Source: a virus. Taken from it: DNA of 64,000 nucleotides. Shown here in pieces: positions 1,325 to 61,491 of the stretch (its first letter is position 1; each line of letters opens with the position of its first letter). The notes beneath the pieces are model-generated. The model was not told where the DNA came from. It saw only the letters and a list, made by a program, of their open reading frames with translations, and did no database searches. The position numbers were made by a program, and so were the translations under genes. Where the stretch lies: positions 1-64,000 of the IMG/VR virus record IMGVR_UViG_3300005663_000003; one strand, 5' to 3'.

Positions 1325-1356
1325 CGCGTGATGACACGGCTGACGCGGCTGACCCC
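1255..1356 (+). repeat. Degenerate TGACACG repeats across the terL start
   Basis: About nine copies of TGACACG or close variants (TGACCG, AGACACG, TGACGCG) lie at 1255, 1264, 1285, 1294, 1303, 1322, 1332, 1341 and 1350. They span the end of the preceding gene and the first codons of terL. The CCAAGTGAGG motif sits among them at 1271-1280. A packaging-initiation or protein-binding site is possible, but this is inference. Confidence 0.5.
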
Positions 1357-9389: not shown

Positions 9390-9659
9390 ATGCCGCACGA
9401 CTGCACCGGGAAGCTCATCAAGCTGGGCGACTACGTCCAGGCGAACCCCATGAACCGGACGGAGGACTTCGTCGTCGGCCGCATCGTCGAGCTGACGGAG
9501 TCGCAGTTCTGCTCCGGCCAGATTCGCTGGCCCGGTATCGGGCAGCTCGACCAGGACTACTTCGACGCCAAGGACTGCACGCTCATCCTGAAGGGCGACG
9601 GGTCCGACAAGCTGGCCGACCGCGTCCCCGTCGTCGATGGGGCGTGCGTCCCCGACTAA
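9390..9659 (+). CDS. Hypothetical protein, 89 aa
   Basis: ATG at 9390 has the strong site AAGGAGAG. The product looks like a small beta-barrel: it begins with KLIKLGDYVQANPM and continues with VVGRIVELTESQF and IRWPGIGQLDQDYF, a pattern reminiscent of KOW or SH3-like folds. It contains three Cys. The function is unknown; the fold suggestion is inference. Confidence 0.6.
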   Translation: MPHDCTGKLIKLGDYVQANPMNRTEDFVVGRIVELTESQFCSGQIRWPGIGQLDQDYFDAKDCTLILKGDGSDKLADRVPVVDGACVPD

Positions 9660-9729
9660 ACTTTCTGCTTGAGAGCGTCGCACCCGTCGCGCATCATGGG
9701 GTCTCAACCCCAACGCAAAGGTGAAGCGA

Positions 9730-10302
9730 ATGCGTGCTCTGTTTGTAGTGGCGGAAGGTTACAAAGGCGAGAACTCGGGATGTGAATTGGAGACGCACAA
9801 CGGCGTCGCCACCCACACCCAAGACAACCAGGGCCCGCTGGTCCGATTGCAGATCGGATACCGCGACGCGGGCAGCCTGATGCGCTGGCTATGGATGGTG
9901 TTCCCCGACGCGGAGGCCAACGTCATCGGCTGCCGTTGTGCGTGCGGAAAGCTCGCGACCGTCAACCTCCACCTGTTGGGCGACAAGCCGAGCGGCCACT
10001 GGTGCGACGACTGTGTGCCAGAGGACAAGCGCGAGGAGTTCGAGGAGAACAAGGCGCGCGGCGCCCACCCTCACGAGAAGCGCGCGACCGAGGAGGCGGT
10101 GAGATACTACCTCCGGTCGGCCTACGGCTACACGGTCGAGGAGGTCGCCGACGCGATCCGCGAGCACCCCTACACCATCGCGTCGGCGGCGGGCAAGGGC
10201 ATGAGCGTCGAGGAGTGTGCGGTCGACATCAACCGGCGGCGCACGCGCCCGAGCCCCCGCGTCCAGCTCGAAGAAGCCGCAGCCGAGAAAGCGGCCGAGT
10301 GA
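9730..10302 (+). CDS. Hypothetical zinc-binding protein, 190 aa
   Basis: ATG at 9730 is preferred because AAAGGTGAAGCGA lies directly upstream as ribosome site; an in-frame GTG at 9721 is the alternative. The middle holds CRCACGK and a later WCDDC (about residues 60-95), giving a probable zinc site. The C-terminal half has a helical segment (YTVEEVADAIREHPYTIASA) that could be a helix-turn-helix, and an Ala/Glu tail. The family is not recognised. Confidence 0.6.
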   Translation: MRALFVVAEGYKGENSGCELETHNGVATHTQDNQGPLVRLQIGYRDAGSLMRWLWMVFPDAEANVIGCRCACGKLATVNLHLLGDKPSGHWCDDCVPEDKREEFEENKARGAHPHEKRATEEAVRYYLRSAYGYTVEEVADAIREHPYTIASAAGKGMSVEECAVDINRRRTRPSPRVQLEEAAAEKAAE

Positions 10303-11190: not shown

Positions 11191-11243
11191 AACTTTCTGA
11201 ACTTTGTGTTTGACCGACGTGCCCCCGGTTGTATACTGGGGGC
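11191..11243 (+). promoter_or_regulatory. Promoter with tandem AACTTTCTG element (copy 1)
   Basis: AACTTTCTG (11191-11199) and AACTTTGTG (11200-11208) precede TTGACC (11210-11215), a 16-base spacer and TATACT (11232-11237). The ATG at 11244 is 12 bases from the start of the -10 box, which predicts a leaderless mRNA. Three near-identical copies lie at 55709, 56814 and 59252. Confidence 0.85.
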
Positions 11244-11912
11244 ATGAGCAACACGAACACGAACACGAACACCGCGCACGTCTTTGAGACCGCTGGCCTT
11301 GGCGCCTCCCCCTTCCGCTTCGTCGGCTTCGAGGACTCGGCCGCCAAGGTCAACACCGAGGACGGCATGGTCCGCACCACGGTCGACGGCCTCGACATCT
11401 TCACCAAGCCCGGCGGGAGCTGCGACTACTGCGGCACCTACATCGTCCAGTTCTGCTGGATCAAGTCGGCCGACGGCAAGCGCTTCAAGGTCGGCACGAG
11501 CTGCGTCAGCAAGACCGGCGACAAGGGCCTGGTTGACAGGGCCAAGCGCGCCGCTGGCCGCGTTCGCCGCGCGAAGGCGAAGGCCAAGCAGGTCATCAGG
11601 ATCGACGCCGCGCGGGCCGCGTTCATTGCCGACACCGACGGCGTGCGCACCTTCCTCGCGGACGTCGCGAGCCCCACGGAGTGGCGCGCGGAGAAGGGCG
11701 AGACGTGGGCCAGCTACGTCGCTTGGATGCTGGTCGACGGCGGAGCCAGCAGCTACAGCCGTGGCCCGAGCGCCCCGGAGTGGCTCACGGACGGGACGCT
11801 CATCCCCGGCGCCGGGCACACCGGCCAGTTCGAGATGACGAAGCTCATCGAGCGCGTCGCCAAGGGAACCCAGGACACGCCCATATGGGCGTGGCAGAAG
11901 GAGAGCAAGTAG
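11244..11912 (+). CDS. Zinc-binding protein expressed from a leaderless promoter, 222 aa
   Basis: ATG at 11244 has no Shine-Dalgarno site and lies where transcription should start. The N-terminus is an Asn/Thr repeat (MSNTNTNTNT). Residues 58-90 hold GSCDYCGTYI and KVGTSCVSKTG, a zinc site resembling small treble-clef or ribbon proteins of phages and plasmids. A basic Ala/Arg/Lys helix follows (about 92-115). The rest is mixed. Possible nucleic-acid binding is inferred from the basic helix and zinc site. Confidence 0.65.
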   Translation: MSNTNTNTNTAHVFETAGLGASPFRFVGFEDSAAKVNTEDGMVRTTVDGLDIFTKPGGSCDYCGTYIVQFCWIKSADGKRFKVGTSCVSKTGDKGLVDRAKRAAGRVRRAKAKAKQVIRIDAARAAFIADTDGVRTFLADVASPTEWRAEKGETWASYVAWMLVDGGASSYSRGPSAPEWLTDGTLIPGAGHTGQFEMTKLIERVAKGTQDTPIWAWQKESK

Positions 11913-12824: not shown

Positions 12825-13135
12825 TGACCGAGCACGCTGACATCGGGCACGGGTTCAGCATCGACATGAACCGCCTACCACCAGAGATGGTCGTGGTGAA
12901 CTGCGCTGGGTGCCGGACCGTGTTGCGCGTCGACCCTCAGAACAAATGGAAGGGCGAGGCAGTTCCCCAAAGAGTTCGAGGCAGGATCAAGGGGAAGCCG
13001 TTCTGCTCGGGGTGCCTCGATGTCTCAGGCGCTGGCATCAGCGGCTTGGCCGGTGGCATGGCTACCGACTTCGGAACGCCGAGTCCGTGGCATGAGAACT
13101 CACAACGTGCCGCCGAGGACGCACCCGGCGTGTAG
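12824..13135 (+). CDS. Small zinc-knuckle protein, 103 aa
   Basis: ATG at 12824 overlaps the previous stop by one base and has GGAGG upstream. CAGCRTVLRV (near residue 26) and FCSGCLDVSG (near residue 63) form a typical paired CxxC zinc ribbon. The C-terminus is Gly-rich and flexible. The function is unknown. Confidence 0.6.
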   Translation: MTEHADIGHGFSIDMNRLPPEMVVVNCAGCRTVLRVDPQNKWKGEAVPQRVRGRIKGKPFCSGCLDVSGAGISGLAGGMATDFGTPSPWHENSQRAAEDAPGV

Positions 13136-13144
13136 ACTGGACCC
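13133..13144 (+). promoter_or_regulatory. Putative leaderless promoter, -10 TAGACT
   Basis: TAGACT at 13133-13138 starts 12 bases before the ATG at 13145. It overlaps the previous stop codon. No -35 consensus is visible. Confidence 0.5.
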
Positions 13145-14158
13145 ATGGCGAAGAAGAAGCCACGACCCGGAGATGCCACCGTCGATGAATACCTCGACGC
13201 TGCCGATGACCTGCTCGGCGGGCTCGAAGCTGCGGCGGCGGTCAGCAAGGCCGAGGTCGCGCCGCTTCGGTTGGGGCTAGCGGTGTTCGCGCGTGAGGCT
13301 GGGCGCAAGGCCCTCGCTGGCATGAAGACCAAGCAGGTAGGCCGGGCCCGCATTCTCGTCCCCGGCGGCAAGAACGAGAAGAAGGCCATCGCCGCGAGCG
13401 AGCGGGTCCGCGATCGGTTCTCCCGGTTCAAGGTCAACTGGCTCGACAAGGGAGAAGTGAACCGGCTCATCTCGTCTGGCTTCACCAAGGCCGACCAGCG
13501 AAAGTTCTTCCGGCACAGCAACCGCCTGGCCCGGCAGTCGCGCATCTTCTTCGAGCGCCTTGGCGAGCTGGAGCCCAGCCTACAGGAGGAGATCGACGCG
13601 ACCCTCCGGCAGATCACCGACGCGCGGAACGACCTGACGAAGGTGGAGTTCCGAAGCTGGACCACGGTGCAGGAGAACCTGCTTCGGAACATCAACGGCC
13701 AGGCGTCGAGGCAAGCGACAGCCAACGCGGTCCAGACCTTCGACCTCGACCGGAACCTGTTCAACCTCGCGATGCTAGAACACCCGAAGGGCGTGGCGCG
13801 CGAGCTGCTCGCGAACAGCTCCGAGCGCATGGCCGCGCGGGTCACGAGGACGGCGAGCGAGCTACCGAAGAAGGCTCTGGTGTTCGTCGGCGCTGGGCCC
13901 GACGCGGTGAGCAAGATGACACCGGACAGCCGGGCGGCCCGCGTGATGTGGCGGGTGTTCTCGGCGGACCAACTCGACAAGCGGTTCGCCGCGCTGAACG
14001 CGGGGCGGCAGTCCAGCTCCTCGTGGCGTGGGCTGGGCCAGGCGCACAACACCCCGGAGTGGTATATCCCGATTCCGCCCGAGGTCGAGGACGACGTGAG
14101 GCGTTCGATGAGGAAGCGGCGCCAAGATTTCCTGACGCGAATCCAGATCAAAGAGTGA
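13145..14158 (+). CDS. Putative minor head (MuF-like) protein
   Basis: ATG at 13145 is leaderless-like. The 337-residue product is largely helical with a basic C-terminal domain (RAARVMWRVFSADQLDKRF, then WRGLGQAHNTPEWYIPIPPE) that resembles the compact end of phage head-morphogenesis proteins. Its place between portal and protease is where MuF/gp7-type minor head proteins normally lie. I see no decisive motif, so the assignment rests on position and general architecture. Confidence 0.45.
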   Translation: MAKKKPRPGDATVDEYLDAADDLLGGLEAAAAVSKAEVAPLRLGLAVFAREAGRKALAGMKTKQVGRARILVPGGKNEKKAIAASERVRDRFSRFKVNWLDKGEVNRLISSGFTKADQRKFFRHSNRLARQSRIFFERLGELEPSLQEEIDATLRQITDARNDLTKVEFRSWTTVQENLLRNINGQASRQATANAVQTFDLDRNLFNLAMLEHPKGVARELLANSSERMAARVTRTASELPKKALVFVGAGPDAVSKMTPDSRAARVMWRVFSADQLDKRFAALNAGRQSSSSWRGLGQAHNTPEWYIPIPPEVEDDVRRSMRKRRQDFLTRIQIKE

Positions 14159-18926: not shown

Positions 18927-20444
18927 TTGACCATGTCGGCCACAGCGCGCAAGAACATCGCTTCACTCCGGGGCGGCGGTGAGGGTTCGCCCAAGCCGCC
19001 CGCCCCGGTGTTTTTGGTGAACCGCTTCAAAGACAACCTCCCGATGGCCTTCGACGGTTTCCGCGAGGGGAGCGGCGACGAGAAGACTGGCAAACTCGTC
19101 GAGATCACCATCATCAAAGCGGGCGTGTCCCTCAACGGACTCGACTACCTGCCTTCGACGCTGAGGGAAGCGGCCACGCTTTTCGAGGGCGTCCCCATCT
19201 ACGCCTTCAAGTTCGGCAAGACCATCGGCGACGAGAAGAAGCTGAGCCATCTCCCCGAGCAGGCGAAGACCCGGCGCGGGAACTTCGGCAACCAGGTCGG
19301 GGTCATCAAGGAGAGCTGGTGGGACGAAGCCCTCCAGTCCATCCGTGGGCTCGTCGCGATCTTCGACGGCGACACCCGGACCAAGCTCAAGAACGCGTTT
19401 GACCAGAAGCTGATCGGCAGGGGCGTCAAGGAGCCCGCGTTCGGTCTGAGCATCGACGCGGCAGGACTCAAGGAAGGCGCGGGCGTCACCAAGATCGTCC
19501 GGCCCGAATCAGTGGACATCGTTAAGAAGGCTGCCGCCGATGGTGCCTTCGACCGACTGGTGGCATCGGCCACCGAAACAGAGGAGCTGGACATGGAAGC
19601 CAAGGAAGTCACCGCGCTCATCGAGACCGCGCTCGCGGGAAACAACACCAACCTGCTCAAGCTCCTCAAGGAGCAGGGCGACGAGGAGGGCAACGGCGAC
19701 GGCGGAGACGCCCTGAGCGGCCTGCGGAAGATGCTGGAGGGCGCGAGCCCCGAGGATCAGCGCACCCTCGCCACCCGCGTGCTCGCCATGTTCAAGGAGA
19801 TGGGCCTCACCGAGGCCAGCCCCGAGGAGAAGAAGCGGGAGCAGATGACCGAGGCTCTCAGGGGTTTGATGGCAAAGCACGCCAAGGACCCGAAGGCGCT
19901 GACCGAGGCGGTCGGCCAGCTCGTCGAGGCGAGCGACGAGCCCGAGGACGCCCGGGACCAGAAGCTCAAGCTGCAGGACCGGCAGCTCCGCGAAATGGCC
20001 ATCAGTCGGGTGCTCGACACCCTCACCCTCAAGGAGGGCCGCACGTTCGTCGACATCGACGACGCCATCGCGCTCGCCGACCTGACCAAGGTCAAGGTGT
20101 CCGAGGACTACTCCGAGGTGGCCGGACTGCTCGAAGCGATGGAAGCCCTCGCCGAGAAGAAGCCCCACCTGCTCAAGCCGATCGAGGACCAGACCAAGGT
20201 GACCTCGAAGGAGGGCGCCGACGAGGGCGCGGCGGCCACGGCGCACGGGAAGAAGCCCGCGCCGCGCGGCCAGGAAGTCATCCTCCGGGAGGACGCGGAC
20301 GACGACGACGGCCCGACCGTCAAGGGACTCGAAGCCGACCTGGCCGCCATCGACGAGCGGCTGAAGAACGGCACGGCCATCGACGCCGACCTGGTCCGCC
20401 GGGCCCGGATCGGATCGCAGCTCAAGCGGGCGCGTAGCGCCTAG
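18927..20444 (+). CDS. Capsid maturation protease with C-terminal scaffold domain
   Basis: TTG at 18927 is 7 bases after GGGAGG; the ATG at 18933 is the alternative start. Residues 30-210 resemble phage prohead proteases: SLNGLDYLPSTLREAA, FEGVPIYAF, VGVIKESWWDEALQSIRG and PESVDIVKKAAADGAFDRL, the last like the conserved SVDxV(T)xPAAGG segment. Residues 215-505 are acidic, helical and low in complexity, as expected for an internal scaffold removed during maturation. The catalytic residues are not assigned with certainty. The major capsid gene follows. Confidence 0.75.
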   Translation: MTMSATARKNIASLRGGGEGSPKPPAPVFLVNRFKDNLPMAFDGFREGSGDEKTGKLVEITIIKAGVSLNGLDYLPSTLREAATLFEGVPIYAFKFGKTIGDEKKLSHLPEQAKTRRGNFGNQVGVIKESWWDEALQSIRGLVAIFDGDTRTKLKNAFDQKLIGRGVKEPAFGLSIDAAGLKEGAGVTKIVRPESVDIVKKAAADGAFDRLVASATETEELDMEAKEVTALIETALAGNNTNLLKLLKEQGDEEGNGDGGDALSGLRKMLEGASPEDQRTLATRVLAMFKEMGLTEASPEEKKREQMTEALRGLMAKHAKDPKALTEAVGQLVEASDEPEDARDQKLKLQDRQLREMAISRVLDTLTLKEGRTFVDIDDAIALADLTKVKVSEDYSEVAGLLEAMEALAEKKPHLLKPIEDQTKVTSKEGADEGAAATAHGKKPAPRGQEVILREDADDDDGPTVKGLEADLAAIDERLKNGTAIDADLVRRARIGSQLKRARSA

Positions 20445-20517: not shown

Positions 20518-21693
20518 ATGGCCGTTGGACAAAAGGTCACTTACCAGGACGTCCAGGAAATCATGGAGATGATCGCCCCGGGCGTGGCGTTCCAGGTCCA
20601 GGACGAGTCGCAGTTCCTTCAGGCGATCGGGTTCCCCGGGCGCATGGGCAACACCTTCGACGTGGACCACAACCACATGGAGAAGCGACTCAACGCCAAC
20701 TCGGCGACGGTCGTGGGTGCCCAGGCCGGGGGCGACACCACCATCGAGTTGGTGGCGGGCCAGGGTAACAACTTCCGCATCGGCCAGATCCTTCAGGCCG
20801 ACGGCTCGCGTGAGCTGATGCGGGTGGTCGGACCGATCGTCGCGAACGAGGTGGAGGTCGCGCGAGCGCACAACACCACCCCCGCGACGGCCATCGCCGA
20901 CGGCGAGACGATCACCCGCGTCGCCTGGCCGCAGGTCGAGAAGGACCAGGGCGGCAACCCCGAGGCGAACATCCGCCAGCAGCGCGACAACTTCACGCAA
21001 ATCTTCCGAGGCGAAATCTGCGTGAGCACGTCGCGGAAGAAGGTGAAGAACAAGGGCGAGATCATGGACGAGGTCCGTGAGCAGCTCACCACCCTCCAGC
21101 GCGACAAGCTGCGCGACCTCGCCCGCGCGTCGCTCGTCGGCAAGCGGTCGGGCACCCCGCGCGGTGACGACACCACCCCGCGCGAGATGGACGGGCTCAT
21201 CCAGCTCATCCTCGACGGGGCGACGGCGCCCCAGGGTGACCCGGTCATCGTCAACGCGGCCCTGGCGCCGCTCGACATCAGCCTGCTCGACGACCTGCTC
21301 GGTCAGTGCTGGGAGCGCGGCGGTCGGCCCGACGCCCTCCTGATGAACACGTTCCAGCTCGAACGGCTGGCGCAGACCATCGAGGGTCGCCGCCGCTACA
21401 CGTCGACCGAGTCGAAGGCGGGCGGTCGGGTTAACGAGTTCGTGAGCAAGCACGGCGGAAACATCCGGGTGTTGCCCGCCGACATCTTCGTCCCGAACGA
21501 CATCGTTCTGGCGCTCGACACGCGCAAGCTCCAGATCGTCAAGCTCGGCACCGGGAACCAACTGTTCGAGGTCTTCGAGCAGGGCAAGCGCGGAACCGCG
21601 GACGAGATCGTCTTCGAGATGGAGGTGACCCTCGAAGCGAAGAACGCGGTCGACGGCGGCCACGGTCTTCTCCAGGGTCTCGCCCGCGTCTAG
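20518..21693 (+). CDS. Major capsid protein (DUF5309/SU10-like, HK97 fold)
   Basis: ATG at 20518 has GGGAGAG upstream. At 391 aa it has the DUF5309 pattern: an N-terminal VTYQDVQEIMEMIAP segment, a beta-rich ADGSRELMRVVGPIVANEVEV region near 93-115, REEs replaced by TSRKKVKNKGEIMDEVREQL (around 170-190), and the C-terminal core PDALLMNTFQLERLAQTI and RVLPADIFVPNDIVLALD. It assembles the icosahedral shell. A strong terminator directly follows, which fits high expression. Confidence 0.9.
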   Translation: MAVGQKVTYQDVQEIMEMIAPGVAFQVQDESQFLQAIGFPGRMGNTFDVDHNHMEKRLNANSATVVGAQAGGDTTIELVAGQGNNFRIGQILQADGSRELMRVVGPIVANEVEVARAHNTTPATAIADGETITRVAWPQVEKDQGGNPEANIRQQRDNFTQIFRGEICVSTSRKKVKNKGEIMDEVREQLTTLQRDKLRDLARASLVGKRSGTPRGDDTTPREMDGLIQLILDGATAPQGDPVIVNAALAPLDISLLDDLLGQCWERGGRPDALLMNTFQLERLAQTIEGRRRYTSTESKAGGRVNEFVSKHGGNIRVLPADIFVPNDIVLALDTRKLQIVKLGTGNQLFEVFEQGKRGTADEIVFEMEVTLEAKNAVDGGHGLLQGLARV

Positions 21694-26047: not shown

Positions 26048-26262
26048 AGCGTAGAAGGCAAGACCTCGAAGACTTGGGTGAGGTGGTTGAGCGAGCCTTT
26101 GGGCGTGTGCTGGCGCAAGCGTTCGGTAAGAGTGAGGAAGCAGGAGAAGAAGGGATCCGGACGGAGTCGGCAACCTACATAGGACACGACCCGAAGACCG
26201 GAGCGAGGACCGAGGCCAATGGCAACAGCCGAACTCAGAGGAGTCATCAGCGGCGACGCTAG
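25331..26262 (+). CDS. Tail assembly chaperone frameshift product (gpGT-like), -1 at 25918
   Basis: The heptamer G GGA AAG at 25912-25918 is in the zero frame and identical to the lambda G/T slippery sequence. After a -1 slip the frame is open from 25918 to TAG 26260-26262, giving a 310-residue product. The added part reads LLYYKLQATERLRWLTPERF and LIVYAIERRRQDLEDLGEVV, typical of gpT. A possible GAGGG/CCCTC stem follows the heptamer. The T part overlaps the tape-measure start by 44 bases and has no independent start of its own near its beginning. Confidence 0.85.
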
Positions 26263-29200
26263 TGAGTTCGTCGCGGCCTCGACTCAGGCCCAGCGATCCC
26301 TGGGCGCACTCGGCAAGACCGGGGCGACGGTCGCCACGCAGCTCCAGAATGTGCTGGGAGGAACCGGGACGCAGCGCGATGCGCTCGGTCGGTTCACGAA
26401 GAACGCAGGGAAGGCTCGCGACGCGCTCGGGCGTTTCAAGAAAGAAGGCGCGGCGACTTCCTCCATCTTCTCCAAGCTGCGCAACACGCTCGGCAAGGTG
26501 GGGAGGTCGGCCATCGACGCGGGCAAGTCGGCGGCCTCTGCGTTCCGTTCGGCTGGCGGAATCCTCAAGGACATCGCGATCGGCGCCACTGCGGTTGTTG
26601 CTGCGCTAGCCGCGATCGGCGGCGCGGCGGTCGTGAACTTCGCCAAGTTCCAAACCGCCTTTAGCCAGGTCCGCACCCTGGTCGACGAGTCGCAGGTCGA
26701 CGTCCAACTGCTGAGCGACGGCGTGCGTGAGCTGTCGGTGCGGTTCGGTGTCGACGTCACCGAGGCGACGCGAGCGGCCTACCAAGCGATCAGCGCCGGG
26801 CAGGACCCCGCGAACGTGGTGAACTTCCTCGCCACCGCCTTCGAGAATGCGGCGGCTGGTGCGGCCACCGTAGTCGAGTCGGTCGACCTTCTGACCTCGG
26901 CCCTTAACGTGTTCGAGTCACAAGGGCTCACCGCTGAGCAGGCGTCGGACATCCTGTTCAAAACTGTCGAGCTTGGCAAGACGACCATCGCCGAACTCGC
27001 GGCGAGCTTCGGCCAGGTTGGACCCATCGCCGCTGCCGCCGGGGTGAGCTTCGCCGACCTCGGCGCCGCGCTCGCGACGACGACGGCCCAAGGCTTGAGC
27101 ACTGCCGAGGCGTCGACCGCAATCAAGGCGGCCATCGCCGGGATCGTCAACCCGGCTAAGGGGGCTGCTGGCGCTCTCGAAAGCATCGGCGTCAGTGCGC
27201 GGAGTCTCAGAGAGGAGGGCCTGGTCGCGACGTTCGAGAGGATCGGCGACGCGACCGGCGGGGCCATCGAGAACATCGTAAGGTTCCTCCCCAACATCCG
27301 TGCGGTCAACGCGGCGGCGATCCTCGCGGGTAGTGGCCTCGACAAGTTCAGGGCGGCGGCTGAAGGGACCTCGGATTCAACCGGCGCCGCGTCGCGCGCC
27401 TTCGAGAAGCTGGTAGCCGACATTGCCCGAACGTTCAGCATCATCCGCCAGACTCTGACGGACACCTTCCGCCAGATCGGCGAAGCCTTGACGCCGATCG
27501 TCGGTCAACTCGGCAACGTGTTCAGCGCGTTCGCTATGAACACGCGCACAGAGGTCATCGCCCTGACTCGCGTTCTCGGCGCTCGGTTCGCTGACGCTGG
27601 GGACTCGATCGAGGATTTCGAGGCGACGGTGAGCAGCTCGGGCGGCGCGATCAGTCTCGGGCTGAGCGCCGTGAGCGCCGTGCTGGAAGGTCTCGCCGAC
27701 GCATTCAATTCGGTCGCCCGCCCCGTCGGCGCCATCGCGGCGTCGTTCGAGTTCCTCGCCACCATCCTCAAGTCCGCGCTCCTGTCGGTCGTCTCGCTTG
27801 TCACGATCGCGCTCAATGGGCTGCTACAGATCATCGTGGGAATCCCCGAGGCGCTCATCCGTCTCGTCTCCACGGTCGCCGACTTCATCCCCGGACTCGA
27901 CGGCCTGGTCAAGAGCCTCGACAAAGCGAGCACCGGACTCAAGGACATCCGCGACGAGGCGCAAGCCTTCTCGGATTCTCTGGAGGAGTCGCAAGAGGCG
28001 GCGGTAAAGGCTGCTGAGGAGTTCGACTTCTCTGCCGTGTTGAATGAAAGTGCGAAGGCGGTGCGTGAAGTTGGGACCAGCTTCGCGGAAGCCGCCAACG
28101 ATGTCGAGGACTTCGGCGAGGAAGTCGCAGCGGCAGTGCGCGAGGCGCAGGCCCGGGGCGAGATCGTGCAACTCGGCAGCGACCTCAAGACGACGGCAGC
28201 CGAGGCGAAGGGCGCAGCCGAAGCACTCACCGAGTTGGGCGAGGCTGGAGCCGGGGCGACCGCCGGGCTCAACGCCGCGACGACTGCGACCACCGGACTG
28301 AGTCAAGCTCTCCAGGGGATCGCAGGCGGAAGCTCAGAGGCGGCGCGCGGGCTCGCCGACCTCGGGCCTAAGGCGATGGAAGTCGCCGAGGCCATCGCGG
28401 GGATCGGGGCGGCTCAGACCGATGAGCAAGCCTTGGCCCGGCGGCAGGAAGCCATCGCGAACCTGATCGCGGCGGCGGATGCCGAACTGTCCAAAGCCAT
28501 CACTGCAGCTCGCGACCGGGGCAGGGAGCAGCTACAGGAAGCGGAAGCGAACCTGCGCGCAGCCCAGGCGACCGCACAGGAAGCGGCTGGGACCGAAGTC
28601 TTCGCCGCTGCGTTCCGGGAGGAGCGCCGCGCAGCCGACGACCTTGAGGCCACGGTTCGCAGCGTTAACGATGCGTTCAACGCCCAGCGCGCCTTGGCGC
28701 GCGAAGTCTTCGACTCGGTCATCCAAGACATCGGTGGGATCGATGGCGCGCTGGAGGTCTTCCGCACGGACTCCATCGCCAAGGCTGCGACAGCCGGGCG
28801 GGCGACCACGGCAGAGGCACGCCGCGTGTTCGACAGGGAAGTGGCCCGGCTGCGTGAGGCGCGGGCCGCTTCGGAAATCGAGGACGTCGCCTTCTTCGAT
28901 CAGCTCAATGCAGCACGCGCCCGGCTCAACCAAACCGTGGAGGATGCTGGCGACACGTTCGAGCGGGCGCGCGACCAGGCCGAGGCTGCCTTCGACCTCG
29001 GCACTCAGACGGCATCGGTCAACGAACTCGCAGACGCTCTCACCGGTCCGTTCGCCGAGGCGGTCCAGCAAGCGCGCGAGGATGCCGAGACGTTCGGCTT
29101 CAGTCAGGAGGAGTTGAACGAGGCCCTCAAGGGGATCGTCGAGCAGTCGGAGGAGACGGGCGAGAGCGTTGTGGACCTCGCCGAGGACTTCGAAGACCTC

Positions 29201-29752
29201 GGCGAGTCGGCCAAGGACGCAGCGGCGGACCTCAAGGAGTCGGCACGCATTGCCGAGGAAGCGGCCACCAGCTTCGAGAACGCGTCCGCTCGGTTGACTC
29301 AGGCGCAGAGCTTCGCAAGAACCGGTGTCGGCGTGCGGTCAGGTGGCGAGACCCAGGCGCAGGTAAACGCGCGGTTCGGCGGCCTGCGGTTCGGCATCCA
29401 ACAGCAGCCCCGGACCACGGGCAGGCGCAGCATCACGGGCCGGGCTATCAGCGAGTCGGGACAGATCGCGCCGCGCGGCATCCTGAGCTTCGACCTCGGT
29501 GGCCCGGTGCGGACCGACCAGCTCGCGCGCCTCCAGGCTGGCGAGACGGTCCTCAGCCGCTTCGACACGGCGGCCCTTCGGTCGATCCTCGGCAGTCGAG
29601 GCGGCGGCGCAGCCACCAACATCATCAACGTCTCGCCGACCTTTAATATCGAGGGCGGGAACGCAGAGGACAACCGCGCGATGGCCCGCAGCCTCATCCC
29701 GGAGATCACTCGGGCGGTAGACCTCGGAGTGGTCGGGAAGGGGGTGCTGTGA
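26219..29752 (+). CDS. Tape measure protein (TP901-like core)
   Basis: ATG at 26219 opens 1177 residues that set tail length and form the ejection ruler. The N-terminus is basic, with a repeated DALGRF(T/K)K segment near 58 and 69. A hydrophobic stretch lies near 120-142. Residues about 145-410 match the TP901-type core (FSQVRTLVDES, TTIAELAASFGQVGPIAAAA, FLPNIRAVNAAAILAGSGL). A second hydrophobic zone lies near 505-560. A long Ala/Glu coiled-coil region follows to about 1020, then a basic C-terminus. It ends inside the GTG of the next gene. Confidence 0.9.
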   Translation: MATAELRGVISGDASEFVAASTQAQRSLGALGKTGATVATQLQNVLGGTGTQRDALGRFTKNAGKARDALGRFKKEGAATSSIFSKLRNTLGKVGRSAIDAGKSAASAFRSAGGILKDIAIGATAVVAALAAIGGAAVVNFAKFQTAFSQVRTLVDESQVDVQLLSDGVRELSVRFGVDVTEATRAAYQAISAGQDPANVVNFLATAFENAAAGAATVVESVDLLTSALNVFESQGLTAEQASDILFKTVELGKTTIAELAASFGQVGPIAAAAGVSFADLGAALATTTAQGLSTAEASTAIKAAIAGIVNPAKGAAGALESIGVSARSLREEGLVATFERIGDATGGAIENIVRFLPNIRAVNAAAILAGSGLDKFRAAAEGTSDSTGAASRAFEKLVADIARTFSIIRQTLTDTFRQIGEALTPIVGQLGNVFSAFAMNTRTEVIALTRVLGARFADAGDSIEDFEATVSSSGGAISLGLSAVSAVLEGLADAFNSVARPVGAIAASFEFLATILKSALLSVVSLVTIALNGLLQIIVGIPEALIRLVSTVADFIPGLDGLVKSLDKASTGLKDIRDEAQAFSDSLEESQEAAVKAAEEFDFSAVLNESAKAVREVGTSFAEAANDVEDFGEEVAAAVREAQARGEIVQLGSDLKTTAAEAKGAAEALTELGEAGAGATAGLNAATTATTGLSQALQGIAGGSSEAARGLADLGPKAMEVAEAIAGIGAAQTDEQALARRQEAIANLIAAADAELSKAITAARDRGREQLQEAEANLRAAQATAQEAAGTEVFAAAFREERRAADDLEATVRSVNDAFNAQRALAREVFDSVIQDIGGIDGALEVFRTDSIAKAATAGRATTAEARRVFDREVARLREARAASEIEDVAFFDQLNAARARLNQTVEDAGDTFERARDQAEAAFDLGTQTASVNELADALTGPFAEAVQQAREDAETFGFSQEELNEALKGIVEQSEETGESVVDLAEDFEDLGESAKDAAADLKESARIAEEAATSFENASARLTQAQSFARTGVGVRSGGETQAQVNARFGGLRFGIQQQPRTTGRRSITGRAISESGQIAPRGILSFDLGGPVRTDQLARLQAGETVLSRFDTAALRSILGSRGGGAATNIINVSPTFNIEGGNAEDNRAMARSLIPEITRAVDLGVVGKGVL

Positions 29753-54793: not shown

Positions 54794-55150
54794 ATGGCCC
54801 AGCCCCCGACACGCTTGAAGCGAGGCGACCGCAGCCCGATCTTCGACTCCGTGATGCGCGACCGCGACGGCAACCCCATCAGCCTCCTCGGCGCCACCGC
54901 TCGCTTCCTCATGCGCGACGCGACCGACCGTAGCAACGTGGTCATCGTTGCGCCCGCCACGATCGTCAACCCGCTCGCCGTTGCGCCCGACCCAGACCTG
55001 GGCCGCATCACCTACTCGTGGAGCGCGACGGACACCGTCACCCCCGGTAAGTTCGAAGCCGAGGTGGAGGTCACGTTCGCGGGCGGGATCGTCGAGACGT
55101 TCCCGAACGTCGGCTACCACGACGTCATCATCGAGCAGGACATCGCCTAG
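54794..55150 (+). CDS. BppU N-terminal-like baseplate/fibre adaptor, 118 aa
   Basis: ATG at 54794 is three bases after the previous stop. The small beta domain RGDRSPIFDSVMRDRDGNPI, followed by GATARFLMRDA and WSATDTVTPGKFEAEVEVTF, has the pattern of BppU/fibre N-terminal adaptor domains that attach receptor-binding proteins to the baseplate. It is the last + strand gene of the late block, ending against the convergent nuclease gene. Confidence 0.6.
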   Translation: MAQPPTRLKRGDRSPIFDSVMRDRDGNPISLLGATARFLMRDATDRSNVVIVAPATIVNPLAVAPDPDLGRITYSWSATDTVTPGKFEAEVEVTFAGGIVETFPNVGYHDVIIEQDIA

Positions 55151-55638
55151 ACCTCGGGGTAGAAAACCTCGCGCGCCCAGCCCCCTCCCTTCTTCTCGGT
55201 GACCGCGATGAAGCGGAAGGGGAACAGCCCGGCGGCGGTCTTGATCTTCACCCGCGCATCATCCTCCCAGAATCCCTTGACCTCGTGGACCTCGATGAGT
55301 CCGTCGGGGAGGATCACGAGGAAGTCAGGCGTGTAGCCGGTGAGCCAGTTCGGCCCAAGCCGCAGCTTGATGCACTCGAACCTGTAGTCCGCGATGACGC
55401 CGACGTGTTTGAGCATGTCTAGTTGGCGTTCGTAGCGGGCCTCCAGCTTGTTCATCGGCGGCCCGGCTTCGAGAGTCAGGCGCGTCGCCTTCGCCTCGGC
55501 GCACAGCTCGCGCGACGGTAGCTGCGCCTCGGGCTGCTCGCGTTCGAACTCGGCGAGGTCGACTCCCATCTGCTTGAGCTGGGCACGGGTGAACCCGTTG
55601 CCGCCTCCTCCTCGCCTCTGCCGTCGCTTCCTCGCCAT
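55147..55638 (-). CDS. DUF1064-type nuclease (PD-(D/E)xK-like)
   Basis: The only convincing minus-strand gene. The start is the ATG at 55636-55638, preceded on that strand by AGGAG at good spacing; a longer in-frame extension to 55695 lacks such a site. The 163-residue product has a basic N-terminus (ARKRRQRRGG) and the core YTPDFLVILPDG followed by EVHEVKGFWEDDARVKIK, the D...ExK arrangement of DUF1064 nucleases, often linked to phage recombination or DNA processing. Its stop overlaps the stop of the convergent tail gene. Confidence 0.75.
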   Translation of the reverse strand: MARKRRQRRGGGGNGFTRAQLKQMGVDLAEFEREQPEAQLPSRELCAEAKATRLTLEAGPPMNKLEARYERQLDMLKHVGVIADYRFECIKLRLGPNWLTGYTPDFLVILPDGLIEVHEVKGFWEDDARVKIKTAAGLFPFRFIAVTEKKGGGWAREVFYPEV

Positions 55639-55708: not shown

Positions 55709-55761
55709 AACTTTCTGAACTTTCTGTTTGACAGTGACGCGGGGAGTTGTATAATGAGGGC
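55709..55761 (+). promoter_or_regulatory. Promoter with tandem AACTTTCTG element (copy 2)
   Basis: AACTTTCTG at 55709-55717 and 55718-55726, TTGACA at 55728-55733, a 16-base spacer, TATAAT at 55750-55755 and ATG at 55762. Both boxes match consensus perfectly. It is divergent from the minus-strand nuclease gene. Confidence 0.9.
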
Positions 55762-56022
55762 ATGAACAACACGGAGCACACGACCATGACCGACCTCGCC
55801 ACCCTGCCCATGACCACCCTTGACACCATCTGCCGCGAACTCTACGCGGACATCTACTCGCTTGAGGTCGTCGCCTCCCGCAACAGCGGCGCGAGGTCCC
55901 CCTACGATGTTCGCTTCATCCGCACCCGCGCCGCACGGCGCCTCATCAAGTCGATCCGCCGCACCCTTCGCGGCAGGCTGACGACCGCCGCCAACGCTCG
56001 CCCCACCGGGGAGCGCTGGTAG
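55762..56022 (+). CDS. Hypothetical early protein, 86 aa
   Basis: ATG at 55762 is leaderless with respect to the promoter. The product starts MNNTEHTTMTDLATLPMTTL, sharing the Asn/Thr-rich N-terminal style of the other genes with this promoter, followed by a basic helical C-terminus (RAARRLIKSIRRTLRGRL). It could bind nucleic acid. Unknown. Confidence 0.6.
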   Translation: MNNTEHTTMTDLATLPMTTLDTICRELYADIYSLEVVASRNSGARSPYDVRFIRTRAARRLIKSIRRTLRGRLTTAANARPTGERW

Positions 56023-56024
56023 CC

Positions 56025-56801
56025 GTGAGCGACCTCCGAGGAGCCGAGCTGCTCCGAGCCTTCCGCGCGGGTGACACCGAGGCGGGCCTGGCCTGGCTCA
56101 ACCACGCCGAGCGTGAGGACGACCTGGTCGGCACGATCATCGAGTGGCAAGAGCAGGGCTGTGGCGGGGGACCCTCACCGATGCCGAAGCGCAAACGCGT
56201 CCAGCGGTGGGGCCCCTACATGGGAGTCGAGTGCCCGGGGTGCGACCGCATCGTCGAGGTCGGCGCCGAGGATGGCCCCGTCATGCGAGCGTGGCGCGGC
56301 GGCGAGAGGTTCCCCCACTGTGGCGCCGTTGTTCTCCCGGCCTACGACCGGGCTCATCACTTCGCCCCCTTCATCTGCGTCGAGGGCGAGACGGGACCGA
56401 TGGAGTTGAGCGAGTTCCTCGAATGGATGGGCGACGACCTCACCGCCATCGACACGAACGCCGAGCAGATCCAACGGACCCGCGACAACCAGGCCGAATG
56501 GGAAGAGGCGCGGGCTCTGCGGAAGGCGAACACTGAGGAGCACAAGGCGAGACGCGCAGAACGCGCCGCGAAGGACAGGGCGGGCCGCGCCATGGATGGA
56601 CAGCTCGCCGCGTCCCTCGTCCTCGACGAGTTCATCGCCGCGCACAATGGGCCGATGTGGCCGAAGGACGTGGACCGGCTGCGACGCTTGGAGGCGGCAC
56701 ACTACGACGCGACCGAGCGGCACCGCCGCGCACACGACGGCTGGAAGGAAGCGCACGCGGCTGCGGACAAGGCAGCTAAGGCCCTGGCGGAGCTGGAGTA
56801 A
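56025..56801 (+). CDS. Hypothetical zinc-containing coiled protein, 258 aa
   Basis: GTG at 56025 begins two bases after the previous stop. Residues 65-95 hold ECPGCDRIVEVG and later FPHCGAVV, a likely zinc ribbon. From about 145 to the end it is a charged coiled helix (ALRKANTEEHKARRAERAAK). The function is unknown. Probably co-transcribed from the promoter at 55709. Confidence 0.55.
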   Translation: MSDLRGAELLRAFRAGDTEAGLAWLNHAEREDDLVGTIIEWQEQGCGGGPSPMPKRKRVQRWGPYMGVECPGCDRIVEVGAEDGPVMRAWRGGERFPHCGAVVLPAYDRAHHFAPFICVEGETGPMELSEFLEWMGDDLTAIDTNAEQIQRTRDNQAEWEEARALRKANTEEHKARRAERAAKDRAGRAMDGQLAASLVLDEFIAAHNGPMWPKDVDRLRRLEAAHYDATERHRRAHDGWKEAHAAADKAAKALAELE

Positions 56802-56813
56802 TGGAGCCTCAGA

Positions 56814-56867
56814 AACTTTCTGAACTTTCTGTTTGACAGGACGCCCCGGAGTTGTAGACTAGGGGGC
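56814..56867 (+). promoter_or_regulatory. Promoter with tandem AACTTTCTG element (copy 3)
   Basis: AACTTTCTG at 56814-56822 and 56823-56831, TTGACA at 56833-56838, a 16-base spacer, TAGACT at 56855-56860 and ATG at 56868. Confidence 0.9.
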
Positions 56868-57869
56868 ATGAGCAACCCCGAAAGGAACGACATGAACACG
56901 ACCAAGAACGACGACCGCCGCACCGCCCGCCGCCGCAAGCTGACCCTCTCGATTCTGGGCCAGGAAGCGGACCGCTCCAGAACGAACAAGCCCGAGCTGG
57001 TCGACGCGGCTGCCCGCCTCTACTCGCTGGCGAGCCCCGAGGCCATCGCCATCGTCCAGGCGCAGCTCGCCGTTGACGGCGTGTCGGCCCTGCTCGACCT
57101 CGCCGAGTTCGTCTCCTTCGCTTCCGACAGCGTCGAGCAGATGGCGCTGAGCTACAAGGGCCTTGGCGACAGCACCGGACTCCCGCACGGCCCCGAGCGT
57201 CAGCGGTTCGTGAACCTGTCGGGCAAGCGCACCCACCGCAAGGTCACCTGGAAGACCATCGCCGTGGCTCTCCACGCCGCGATCAAGGCCGAGCGGATCG
57301 CCGCGAGCGAGGCCGAGCACGCCGAGCGCCTCGCCGCTGAGGAAGCTGCCGCTGCTGAGGAAACTGCCGAGGTCATCGGGAGCTTCCCCGCGACCCACGA
57401 GGGAGTGAAGGCCGCCGCGAAGGAGATCGCCAAGCGGATCGGCGAGCGTCGCCGCGCCAAGGCCGACGGTGGCAAGCTCACCGTAGTCGGCGGCGATCCC
57501 AAGGACCATCAGACCGGCCCCGTTCCCAGCCGCATCAAGTCGATCGAGGTCAGCCAGGGCGAGGGCGTCGCGCCCCTGCTCCACGCCACGGTCAACAGCT
57601 TCCACGCGGCGAACGCGTTGCTCCGTCTGATCGCCGACCGCCACACCGGCCCCGGTTACCGCAAGGTCGACCTGGACATCACCTGGGAGAACGGCGAGAC
57701 GATCCGCACCCGTCACGATGTCTACAGCTCGCCCGACGTTCGGAACGAGAAGGAGCACAGCCTCAACGCCGCGAAGCACGCCCGCGCCGTGCTCCGCTTC
57801 TTCGTGGACAAGTATGAGACCGCGAGCGCCCAGGCGATCCTCGACGGCTGCGACCTCGGGAAGGAGTAG
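56868..57869 (+). CDS. Hypothetical early protein, 333 aa
   Basis: ATG at 56868 is leaderless; an in-frame ATG at 56892 after AAAGGAACGAC is an alternative start. A charged N-terminus leads into helices (about 40-110), an Ala/Glu coiled segment (SEAEHAERLAAEEAAAAEET, about 146-165), then a beta-rich C-terminal domain (YRKVDLDITWENGETIRTRH). No family is recognised. As the largest gene behind these promoters it may be a key early product. Confidence 0.6.
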   Translation: MSNPERNDMNTTKNDDRRTARRRKLTLSILGQEADRSRTNKPELVDAAARLYSLASPEAIAIVQAQLAVDGVSALLDLAEFVSFASDSVEQMALSYKGLGDSTGLPHGPERQRFVNLSGKRTHRKVTWKTIAVALHAAIKAERIAASEAEHAERLAAEEAAAAEETAEVIGSFPATHEGVKAAAKEIAKRIGERRRAKADGGKLTVVGGDPKDHQTGPVPSRIKSIEVSQGEGVAPLLHATVNSFHAANALLRLIADRHTGPGYRKVDLDITWENGETIRTRHDVYSSPDVRNEKEHSLNAAKHARAVLRFFVDKYETASAQAILDGCDLGKE

Positions 57870-57872
57870 GCC

Positions 57873-58205
57873 ATGAACGAAACCGAAGACCGCTGGGCCT
57901 GGCTCGTCCGAATCGAGGGCGACCTGCTCCAGCTCACGACGGAGGCGGGGGTCGAGGACAAGATGGCACAGGCCATCCTCGACGACCCCGAGGGCTGGGG
58001 CTTCGACGACATCCCCGAGGAGGACCGCGCCTCCTCCTATCTGATGGCCGACATGGTGATGGCCTGCGTCTACGGCGACTTGATGCACCTGGCCGAGCAG
58101 CACGAATACCCCTGGGCACGGAAGACGCTGGAGCAAGCGGCGGGCGACTGGCTCGACACCAGAACCGCGAAGCTGTCCGAGCTGAGGAAGAAGGACCAAC
58201 GATGA
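57873..58205 (+). CDS. Hypothetical acidic helical protein, 110 aa
   Basis: ATG at 57873 has the site GGAAGGAG. The acidic helical product contains ASSYLMADMVMACVYGDLMH. It is coupled to the next small gene by a 4-base overlap. Unknown. Confidence 0.55.
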   Translation: MNETEDRWAWLVRIEGDLLQLTTEAGVEDKMAQAILDDPEGWGFDDIPEEDRASSYLMADMVMACVYGDLMHLAEQHEYPWARKTLEQAAGDWLDTRTAKLSELRKKDQR

Positions 58206-58375
58206 GGCGGCGAGCCTACAGCGGCAAGCAGGTCGCGTGCTCAGACTGTGGCGCACGCGGCCCAGCCGAGGAGGCGGGCGATGGACCCGAGCCGCTCTGT
58301 CCAGGTTGCTCCGATCCCGTCGGACTGGTCCACGAACAGGACAGCCGGATGCCGATGCCAGGAGACGACCGATGA
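58202..58375 (+). CDS. Small zinc-ribbon protein, 57 aa
   Basis: ATG at 58202 overlaps the previous TGA. CSDCG (residues 13-17) and CPGCS (33-37) make a clear paired CxxC ribbon. Its stop overlaps the next ATG. The start/stop coupling on both sides supports coding. Confidence 0.6.
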   Translation: MRRRAYSGKQVACSDCGARGPAEEAGDGPEPLCPGCSDPVGLVHEQDSRMPMPGDDR

Positions 58376-58689
58376 CCGACGAGCGCGTGGAGCACCTCAA
58401 GATACACGACCTCGGCGGCGGCTTCAGTGCCGAGACCTGGCTGGCTCGCTCTGGCCGCTGGGCCTTCGGCCTGGTCCGGCAGGCTGAGCGCCTCATCCCG
58501 TGCGGCGCTGGTGTCCTCATTCAGCACCGCGCCTCAGTCAGCGCTTGGGGCTACCAGTCCCGGGGGGCCGCACTGGAGGTCGCTGAGCGAGTCGCCCTGG
58601 CCCTCGACCCTACCCGCCTCACCGAGGCGCCAGCGGGCCCTGAGGAGCCTGCCGGGGACCCGGACGAACCCGCAAGGAGAGCCAAATGA
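58372..58689 (+). CDS. Hypothetical protein, 105 aa
   Basis: ATG at 58372 overlaps the previous TGA. An alpha/beta N-terminal part (FSAETWLARSGRWAFGLVRQ) is followed by a Pro/Glu-rich tail. Unknown. Confidence 0.5.
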   Translation: MTDERVEHLKIHDLGGGFSAETWLARSGRWAFGLVRQAERLIPCGAGVLIQHRASVSAWGYQSRGAALEVAERVALALDPTRLTEAPAGPEEPAGDPDEPARRAK

Positions 58690-58919
58690 GCGGATGCGAA
58701 TTCGTAGGCAAGAGCGATGGTGACCGTGGGCGGTGCGGGGCTGAGGCTGGGGGCTTCAATCCCAAGAGCAACGGTATGGACCTGCTCCCCTACTGCGTAG
58801 ATTGTGGCGCCAACTTCTGTGAACACCACCTGGCCCGCCATCGTTGCGGCGCGATGGTTCGAGCAGGGACTAAGCGCGGAGATGCGCCAGCTCGTTACAG
58901 GGAGGAAATGGATGACTGA
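58686..58919 (+). CDS. AN1-like zinc finger protein, 77 aa
   Basis: ATG at 58686 overlaps the previous TGA and follows GGAGAGCC. Cys/His residues in the order C4, C17, C37, C40, C45, H47, H48, H52, C54 (YCVDCGANFCEHHLARHRC) resemble AN1- or B-box-type fingers. Likely a protein- or nucleic-acid-interaction module. Unknown partner. Confidence 0.6.
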   Translation: MSGCEFVGKSDGDRGRCGAEAGGFNPKSNGMDLLPYCVDCGANFCEHHLARHRCGAMVRAGTKRGDAPARYREEMDD

Positions 58920-59232
58920 GCGCGAACCCAACCTGCGCCCCGGTGGCCTCCCCCTCATCGAGGTCGGCGACCGCTGGCTGATCCGTCTGCGCGGGGCGAC
59001 CAAGCTGCTCCCGTGCAAGGTGCTCGACAAGCGAGCGCGCGGCTACTGGCGTGTAGCTCTCGAAGACGGACTGGGCCGCGTCGAGGTCCCGGCCACCTAC
59101 TTCGTCGACCAGCTCCCGCCGGTCGACCCCACCCCCGTCGAACGCGACATCATGGTCGAGCTAGTGAGGCTCCGGCGCGAGGTCGCGCGCCTGGCCCTCG
59201 CGGTGTCCGCCATGCAACCCCCTGAGGAATAA
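58912..59232 (+). CDS. Hypothetical protein, 106 aa
   Basis: ATG at 58912 has GGAGGAA upstream. A small beta-barrel-like N-terminal part (LIEVGDRWLIRLRGATKLLP) is followed by a C-terminal helix (VELVRLRREVARLALAVSAM) suited to dimerisation. Unknown. Confidence 0.55.
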   Translation: MTEREPNLRPGGLPLIEVGDRWLIRLRGATKLLPCKVLDKRARGYWRVALEDGLGRVEVPATYFVDQLPPVDPTPVERDIMVELVRLRREVARLALAVSAMQPPEE

Positions 59233-59251
59233 GGGTTAACGGCAGGCTAGA

Positions 59252-59304
59252 AACTTTCTGAACTTTGTGTTGGACGTGACCGATTACCGTGTATACTGAA
59301 TGGC
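59252..59304 (+). promoter_or_regulatory. Promoter with tandem AACTTTCTG element (copy 4)
   Basis: AACTTTCTG (59252-59260) and AACTTTGTG (59261-59269), TTGGAC (59270-59275), a 16-base spacer, TATACT (59292-59297) and ATG at 59305. The -35 box is weaker than in copies 2 and 3. Confidence 0.85.
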
Positions 59305-59487
59305 ATGAGCAGCACGGCGAACAACACCACCAAGGAGACCAACATGAACAACACCTGCCCCACCCACGGAAACACCCTCATCCTCTCCATGAGCGGCGGG
59401 GGCGTTTGCCTCTTCTGCAACCACAACAACTCGGTCCCCTCCCCCCAACTGGAGGCCCCACAACTCACCCCCAAGTCGGGGGTGTAG
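59305..59487 (+). CDS. Small zinc-knuckle protein, 60 aa
   Basis: ATG at 59305 is leaderless; a second ATG at 59344 after AAGGAGACC could also be used. The N-terminus is Asn/Thr-rich (MSSTANNTTKETNMNNT). CPTHG and CLFCNH (residues 19 and 35) form a likely zinc site. The C-terminus is Pro-rich. Unknown. Confidence 0.55.
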   Translation: MSSTANNTTKETNMNNTCPTHGNTLILSMSGGGVCLFCNHNNSVPSPQLEAPQLTPKSGV

Positions 59488-60152: not shown

Positions 60153-60560
60153 ATGCGCCCAACTGAACGACAGCGGACCGACGAACACCTGCGCCTCGTC
60201 GCCGAGGCGGGGATGCACGAACGCCAGCGCGACCGGCTGAGAACTGAGGCGCTCAGGCACGACGCCACCGCCAAGCGCCAGCGTGCGAAGCTCGCCGAGA
60301 TGGAGAGCGCCCCCGAGAAGGCGGCTAGGCTCACGGGCGCGATCCTCAGGCCGCCGCGCAAGACGCTCGCGGGTGCGCCCCTCGACGTCGAGAGCATCAA
60401 CGTCTACACCCCCGGCTGTCCCGCCGTTGTCCGCATCTTCATTCAACTCACGTGTGGCAAGGTCGCCGCCCTGGACATCTCGGAGCTGGACGCCTTCAAG
60501 CTGGAACGTCGCCTGGCTTGGAAGCTCGACGAACTCGACCGCGACAAAGCCAGCGAATAA
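60153..60560 (+). CDS. Hypothetical protein, 135 aa
   Basis: ATG at 60153 is two bases after the previous stop. A long charged N-terminal helix (about 1-60) is followed by a beta part (VESINVYTPGCPAVVRIFIQ) and a C-terminal helix. Unknown. Confidence 0.55.
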   Translation: MRPTERQRTDEHLRLVAEAGMHERQRDRLRTEALRHDATAKRQRAKLAEMESAPEKAARLTGAILRPPRKTLAGAPLDVESINVYTPGCPAVVRIFIQLTCGKVAALDISELDAFKLERRLAWKLDELDRDKASE

Positions 60561-60593
60561 ACTATCTGAGTGACGAGTGACAGTCCCCTATGT

Positions 60594-60599
60594 TAGACT
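60594..60599 (+). promoter_or_regulatory. Putative promoter, -10 TAGACT
   Basis: TAGACT with a GTGACG-like -35 18 bases upstream (60570-60575). The ATG at 60622 lies 28 bases downstream with its own ribosome site. Confidence 0.5.
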
Positions 60600-60621: not shown

Positions 60622-61056
60622 ATGACAGCCAAGACCAAGCGGCGCAAGAATGAGGGAACCCGAGGCCCCCGCAAGGGCCAGGGCGGACGACCTCGGCGAG
60701 TGATGAACGGCCAGCGCCGTAGCGTCCGGCTCGAATCGAGGGAGTGGCGCAAGCTGTTCCGCTACAGCAACGGCACCAGCTACACGTCGCGGGTTCGCGA
60801 CCTCGTCGAGCTGGCGAACAAGTCCACGAAGAAGGAGCGGGCCAAGCTCGCGACGAAGTGGAAGGAGATCATCGCCACCGACCGGCGCGGCACCATGGTC
60901 GAGCCCACCGACCAGAGCATCCTCCTTGACGCCGAGACGTGGGACACGCTCGCCGAGCTGCTCCCCCTCGGGAGCTGGGCGGACAAGCTGCGCCAAGCGA
61001 TGGAGCTGGCGAAGATCCAAACCACCAAGGCCAAGGAGAAGGCCAAGACCAAGTAG
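60622..61056 (+). CDS. Basic DNA-binding-like protein, 144 aa
   Basis: ATG at 60622 has AAGGAGACGG upstream. The N-terminus is an AT-hook-like run (RRKNEGTRGPRKGQGGRPRR). The middle (RRSVRLESREWRKLFRYSNG, then SYTSRVRDLVELA) resembles a ribbon-helix-helix strand and helices. The C-terminus is Lys/Ala-rich. DNA binding is inferred. It is followed by a helix-turn-helix gene, so this pair may be regulatory. Confidence 0.55.
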   Translation: MTAKTKRRKNEGTRGPRKGQGGRPRRVMNGQRRSVRLESREWRKLFRYSNGTSYTSRVRDLVELANKSTKKERAKLATKWKEIIATDRRGTMVEPTDQSILLDAETWDTLAELLPLGSWADKLRQAMELAKIQTTKAKEKAKTK

Positions 61057-61086: not shown

Positions 61087-61491
61087 ATGAAGAAACTCAA
61101 GTTTAGCAGGCGAAAGCTGGACAAGCTCTCGAAGGCCATGAGAGGACGCGGCGCCATCGCCGAGGCGATCGGCATGAGTCGCCCGGCGGTGGACCGCTAC
61201 TTCATCGGGAAGGCGATGCGGGCGGCGACATACGACAAACTGAACAAGCTCATCAAGAAACACAGCGGCGAGCAGGTCGAGGTCGACATCGGAACCGTGC
61301 CCGAGCCGAGGACTCTGGAGCAGGAGGGCGGCCACCTGTTCCGCCTGCTGTCCAAGGCGCTCGCGCGCAACTCGGGAGTGGAGGCGCTCGGAGCGCAGCT
61401 CACTCGGATCGAAGGCCGCATCACCAGGATCGAGGAGAACCAGCGCGCCAGTCTGAGCGCGTGGAACATGCCCCAGGAGGCAGGACGATGA
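61087..61491 (+). CDS. Helix-turn-helix protein with C-terminal coiled coil
   Basis: ATG at 61087 has a weak AAGGAG 16 bases upstream. Residues 22-55 form a helix-turn-helix (GAIAEAIGMSRPAVDRYFIG), followed by YDKLNKLIKKH. Residues 80-125 are amphipathic (LTRIEGRITRIEENQRASLS), suited to a dimeric coiled coil. A DNA-binding regulator is likely; whether it recognises AACTTTCTG or CCAAGTGAGG cannot be told. Confidence 0.65.
   Translation: MKKLKFSRRKLDKLSKAMRGRGAIAEAIGMSRPAVDRYFIGKAMRAATYDKLNKLIKKHSGEQVEVDIGTVPEPRTLEQEGGHLFRLLSKALARNSGVEALGAQLTRIEGRITRIEENQRASLSAWNMPQEAGR

Follow-up and report, generated by a model that had tools for sequence, protein, structure and literature searches.

Tandem nine-base repeats preceding predicted leaderless promoters in a tailed phage lineage: candidate operator sites

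Results

Four promoters preceded by a tandem repeat

The stretch analysed here (the window) comprises the first 64 kb of the 86,671-bp record IMGVR_UViG_3300005663_000003, a tailed phage in which an initial annotation had described a tandem nine-base element directly in front of several promoters. The tandem pattern AACTTTSTGAACTTTSTG, i.e. (AACTTTSTG)2, matched exactly four times (starts 11191, 55709, 56814 and 59252, all on the + strand). A mean of 0.03 matches was obtained in 100 dinucleotide shuffles, four were never reached, and the rest of the whole record contained no further copies. The repeat at 11191..11208 (AACTTTCTG AACTTTGTG) stands 5' of the promoter of gene 11244, a SigA-type TTGACC-N16-TATACT sequence (11210..11237). 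The copy at 55709..55726 (two AACTTTCTG units) belongs to the first promoter of a rightward early-type region, TTGACA-N16-TATAAT (55728..55755), and the copy at 56814..56831, again with two AACTTTCTG units, is followed by TTGACA-N16-TAGACT (56833..56860). At the fourth repeat (59252..59269, AACTTTCTG AACTTTGTG) the -35 box of TTGGAC-N16-TATACT (59270..59297) abuts the repeat without an intervening T, a correction to the original description of this junction.

The gap between the repeat and the -35 box was 0-1 nt and the spacer to the -10 box 16 nt at all four promoters. The -10 box lay 6-7 nt before an ATG, which began 12-13 nt past the start of that box (11244, 55762, 56868 and 59305); the proposed geometry was thereby confirmed. 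Apart from the promoters at 11191, 55709 and 56814, the genome has no strict -35/-10 pair, defined by a maximum of two mismatches. The claim that conservation extends beyond the needs of the polymerase also held: 17 of the 18 repeat columns were invariant between the four copies, against an average difference of 61% of positions in the 15 bp upstream plus the 16-bp spacer (a figure in which the 59252 spacer was aligned one base out of register, slightly inflating its difference), and the element is kept at a syntenic promoter of a diverged relative (see below).

Two sites had been missed beside the four tandem copies. An extended-motif search found the single-unit site AACTTTCTG-C-TTGAGA, with a poor -10 box (CATCAT), 5' of gene 9730 (9659..9674, +), and a weak, degenerate site, AACTATCTG-A-GTGACG, followed after 18 nt by TAGACT (60560..60599, +), in front of gene 60622, which is led by a Shine-Dalgarno (SD) sequence. 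The phage genome contains 5-6 sites in total. The element at 11191 does lie between head genes, as first described, more precisely within an accessory block that also contains a tRNA-Met. A TAGACT sequence is also present 5' of tRNA-Met at 9198.

Conservation of the element in related phages

A search with the capsid protein identified the relatives L145 and L146 (76-77% identity), and a search with gene 9730 additionally identified L166/G008. A homology-free scan of IMG/VR for the unit, a -35 box, a -10 box and a near ATG returned 34 stretches, one of which, L198, is syntenic with the window phage family. This diverged relative carries two tandem versions of the element, AACTTTCTA followed by AACTTTGTG or AACTTACTA, then 1 nt, TGGAYM, 16 nt and a -10 box. 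On the reverse complement at 8408, the order AACTTTCTA AACTTTGTG C TGGACC N16 TACACT N7 ATG gives the leaderless arrangement. This promoter, the syntenic counterpart, heads a two-gene unit in which a homologue of window gene 11244 comes second, and another tandem element lies 590 bp upstream of the promoter. On the reverse complement at 7817, AACTTTCTA AACTTACTA C TGGATA N16 TAAGCT precedes an SD-led gene. Three extra L198 sites, at 6706 (+), 8393 (-) and 7803 (-), retain the unit together with the GGACA behind it and lack a -10 box at 16-18 nt; the latter two are inverted and located 13-14 bp upstream of the tandem copies. The segment CTTGTCCTGTANTAAGTTACGGGAA, conserved 5' of both L198 tandem sites (reverse strand 7770-7816 and 8360-8407), includes the inverted unit and may represent a second operator arm.

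In the third lineage, G008, the element is a single unit, AACTTAGTR, in an unchanged register. The promoters at 8386 (AACTTAGTG-C-TGGACA-N18-TACTTT) and 6831 (AACTTAGTA-A-TGGACA-N18-TACCTT) have one unit each and are followed by a leader with an SD sequence, and the locus syntenic to window 11191 holds degenerate units (AACTTCCTG, AACTTAGTG) and then the leaderless TGTAGACT-N6-ATG. Since the two other promoters carry one unit, tandem copies are not essential in G008. Loss of the repeats from relatives with active promoters, which the initial annotation had named as counter-evidence, was not observed in L198 and was partial in G008, where the syntenic site is degenerate and the leaderless -10 box remains. 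A matrix trained on the window sites alone (leave-lineage-out) scored the L198 8417 site at 21.6 bits, compared with a maximum of 18.6 in 200 simulated sequences, and the best G008 site (8386) at 19.3 bits, compared with a 95th percentile of 16.7 in the simulations. The unit and the -35 box vary together between the related phages, from CTG/TTGAC to CTA or GTG/TGGAY.

The tandem unit was rejected as a common viral motif: the 58 IMG/VR stretches with an exact tandem were for the most part repeats within coding sequence of unrelated AT-rich phages, and none stood at a promoter of the window type. The other 33 of the 34 matches to the wider pattern were not accepted as enrichment, being phages without a shown relation whose promoter look was demanded by the pattern itself. 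Reading GGAACTT as the -35 element of an extracytoplasmic function (ECF) sigma factor was dismissed for its wrong spacing to the -10 box.

Leaderless starts and gene 5' ends

The gene at 11244..11912 (+) encodes a zinc-ribbon protein of 222 aa whose homologues share HxFExAGLG just past the N-terminus; those in L160-L164 begin 5-13 residues before this motif. As no codon other than ATG 11244 fits its position, the case for a leaderless start of this gene, with no other plausible start, is strong. In L163 (9960-10004), an unrelated AT-rich phage, a gene-11244 homologue stands directly behind a leaderless-type TTGACA-N17-TATATT-N6-ATG. Both leaderless mRNAs and phage promoters predicted to be leaderless have been described before (PMC3898074, PMC4351075), and the leaderless promoters of M. 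tuberculosis have TANNNT centred 7-12 bp upstream of the transcription start site (PMC3898074). All four promoters of the window phage have such a box centred 7-12 bp before the start codon.

The prediction of leaderless mRNAs was supported by the distance from the -10 box to the ATG and by gene 11244, and has to be qualified for the three other genes, which also carry a second in-frame ATG with an SD-like sequence 8-13 codons on: 55762..56022 (+; ATG 55786 after GGAG), 56868..57869 (+; ATG 56892 after GAAAGG) and 59305..59487 (+; 60 aa, ATG 59344 after AAGGAG). These genes are probably dual-start, so that leaderless initiation would not be the whole story. The third position was G/C in 25 of the 26 codons between the two ATGs, versus 20 of 52 for the first and second positions together (Fisher p 4e-7); by this codon phase the 5' extension looks translated. 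The same inter-ATG stretches had zero T in 78 nt.

In the four genes, the first 36 nt had an A+C fraction of 0.75-0.78 (mean 0.55 in other genes), and the first 45 nt folded at -1.2 to -4.8 kcal/mol, versus a mean of -9.8. The Asn/Thr-rich gene starts that had been pointed out are present, and appear to be better explained at the RNA level, as a reflection of U-free, CA-rich, weakly folded mRNA starts, because CA repeats and lack of structure favour leaderless initiation; CA repeats past the start codon enhance leaderless translation (PMC9031893).

A leaderless promoter without repeats, TGTAGACT-N6-ATG, is located at 13131..13147 (+) and conserved in L145. The sequence GTAGACT-N6-ATGGCGAAGAAGAA (window 13131-13147; L145 ~4353) makes it a second leaderless promoter type, with neither repeats nor a clear -35 box.

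Candidate regulator proteins

Three proteins were considered as candidate regulators. The product of gene 9730 (9730..10302, +), a zinc-ribbon protein with a weak helix-turn-helix (HTH), is conserved at 57-65% identity in all three lineages, in each of which its gene adjoins the sites, and is the only candidate that can be compared across them. Its relatives match HTH_23, sigma region 4 and, in one relative, DUF7455, all weakly. The protein put forward initially (61087..61491, +) has only a weak HTH_3 match (E 0.016) and no link to the sites, and a third (60622..61056, +) a weak ribbon-helix-helix match (RHH_4, E 0.021). The predicted structures of 60622 and 61087 (predicted local distance difference test scores, pLDDT, of 55 and 50) were too poor for a fold search, and no relatives of 56868, 60622 or 61087 turned up in searches. 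Gene 9730 is the better-conserved candidate compared with 61087. A short motif, GCATCATGG, is conserved 5' of gene 9730 in three lineages (window 9690-9735; L145 1826-1852; L198 reverse ~7165-7214) and has no recognised function.

Genome context and host

Both ends of the contig share a 77-bp direct repeat, so that it assembles as a circle. The window contains genes for a terminase (1321-3225), a scaffold-like protein (18927-20444), the major capsid protein (20518-21693) and a tape measure protein (26219-29752), and the replication genes are located beyond 66.7 kb of the genome. In our own gene call, 129 of 131 genes point rightward; one of the two leftward genes, 55147-55638 (-), is divergent from the 55709 promoter, and its product weakly matches phage endonuclease I / DUF1064 (Holliday-junction resolvase type). 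A DNA N6/N4 methyltransferase of 593 aa is encoded at L063:8699-10480 (genome 72699-74480). Its phrog_67 match stretches 220 profile positions across 557 residues and its Pfam match is split in two, pointing to a large insertion within the methylase that is possibly intein- or ShiLan-like.

The lineage is previously undescribed and otherwise uncharacterised: a DNA search of phage records with the early region gave no match, and among ~50,700 phage records the major capsid protein had a single weak match (27%) and two other large proteins none. The host is probably actinobacterial, judging from the GC content of 65%, TAGACT in several -10 boxes and the DUF7455 match, this domain being one that we take to be actinobacterial; terminase matches were too distant for a firm host assignment.

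Discussion

With moderate confidence, we propose that the repeats are operator-type sites for a sequence-specific DNA-binding protein, most likely phage-encoded. The operator core would be AACTTWSTR, 1 nt, NKGAYA, doubled head to tail with a 9-bp period in the window phage and L198. With the repeats at about -53 to -36 and the -35 box at their 3' edge, the bound protein could contact sigma region 4 or the C-terminal domain of the polymerase alpha subunit (alpha-CTD), and would switch a small dispersed regulon made up of promoter-proximal early genes (55.7-59.5 kb) and an accessory gene (11.2 kb). Basal recognition would come from the host primary sigma factor, and we lean slightly towards activation over repression by occlusion of the -35 box. 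Transcription is predicted to start at the ATG or within 1-2 nt, giving mRNAs with a 5'-terminal AUG, whose U-free, CA-rich, weakly folded starts may assist leaderless initiation by 70S ribosomes. A regulator binding the repeats, as suggested initially, is plausible in view of their conservation and of the L198 sites without a -10 box.

Alternatively, host alpha-CTDs might read the A+T-rich AACTTT cores near -50 and -41 as a UP-type element, producing very strong early promoters without a separate regulator. This account is a serious contender, although we consider it unlikely. The repeats occupy the usual UP-element location (-40 to -60) and are richer in A+T than the rest of the region, and each of the four promoters has good -35/-10 boxes. 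In phage T4 the early promoters, which use host sigma and have an extended UP/-35/TGn/-10 organisation, likewise show a consensus beyond the -35/-10 boxes, including a conserved sequence upstream of -35 (PMC2988021). T4, however, lacks the exact tandem 9-mer, the 5'-terminal AUG and copies away from promoters. In the window phage the G/C bases C3, S7 and G9 are conserved equally with the T run, and the 9-bp repeat period does not match the alpha-CTD spacing of roughly 11 bp. The element also occurs outside core promoters: the L198 sites without a -10 box (one direct, two inverted) favour a protein other than the polymerase, and a dedicated binding protein is preferred because, where there is no promoter, nothing would preserve a pure UP element.

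A host transcription factor, such as a sigma partner of the WhiB7 type or a direct-repeat binder like BldC, would instead tie the phage early genes to host physiology. In Streptomyces, BldC recognises AATTXXXX(C) units with an A+T-rich core that follow each other head to tail every 9 bp (PMC5859096). The 9-bp period is shared; the consensus differs, and the recognised C is not kept in L198. The position abutting the -35 box fits an A+T-rich WhiB7-type motif. In favour of a factor supplied by the host, the called phage proteins contain no WhiB protein and no GxWGG motif, and the Pfam scan of 72 phage proteins no MerR or WhiB family. The phage proteins scanned had no BldC-like gene either. Such a factor nevertheless seems improbable: a scan of 84,980 prokaryote species genomes did not find the tandem-repeat promoter, the sole match being an unrelated Erysipelotrichaceae metagenome-assembled genome with AACTTTTTG units, and the unit covaries with the -35 box between related phages, as expected for a phage-specific pair, for which reason we favour a phage protein as the regulator. 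We regard as highly improbable that a promoter cassette was recently duplicated within one genome, the repeat identity being due to recency or gene conversion. The promoters do share partial spacer similarity (GACGC..GGAGTTG) and similar gene starts, but the flanks and spacers have diverged where the repeat has not, and L198 has the element at the syntenic locus and G008 an altered form of it.

Several observations weigh against an operator. The regulator is itself a prediction. The near-consensus -35/-10 boxes of the window phage need no activator, the G008 promoters work with one unit while the syntenic copy there is degenerate, and ordinary translation from a short leader is conceivable for the three genes with an SD-led second ATG. 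With the leave-lineage-out matrix, the two inverted sites of L198 reach modest scores (12.0 and 9.1 bits), and a single duplication may have given rise to both.

The element is new, and the kind of control is known. The L5-type stoperators of Cluster A mycobacteriophages are also short, asymmetric, dispersed sites, some overlapping an early promoter (PMC9283540), and the sites of the window family likewise occur both with and without a promoter. The window phage differs in its unrelated sequence, its few sites, where Cluster A has numerous ones, its tandem units and the lack of known lysogeny; Pfam/PHROG scans of 72 early and accessory proteins detected no repressor homologue or integrase. Cluster O mycobacteriophages have SigA promoters with predicted leaderless mRNAs, but without a tandem upstream repeat, and their 17-bp palindrome lies mostly away from promoters, unlike the window repeats.

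The element can serve as a regulon marker for this phage lineage, finding relatives without sequence homology, as with L198. The promoters are compact candidates for strong leaderless promoters in high-GC hosts, and a testable RNA-level reason is offered for the Asn/Thr-rich gene starts. More speculatively, and with little probability attached, the gene-9730 family, which would combine a DUF7455-like zinc ribbon with a sigma-region-4-like HTH, could be a new type of phage transcription factor. It would bind AACTTWSTR units arranged head to tail and deliver the polymerase to promoters of 5'-terminal-AUG mRNAs. If true, the gene-9730 protein alone would control a dispersed regulon together with its translation mode.

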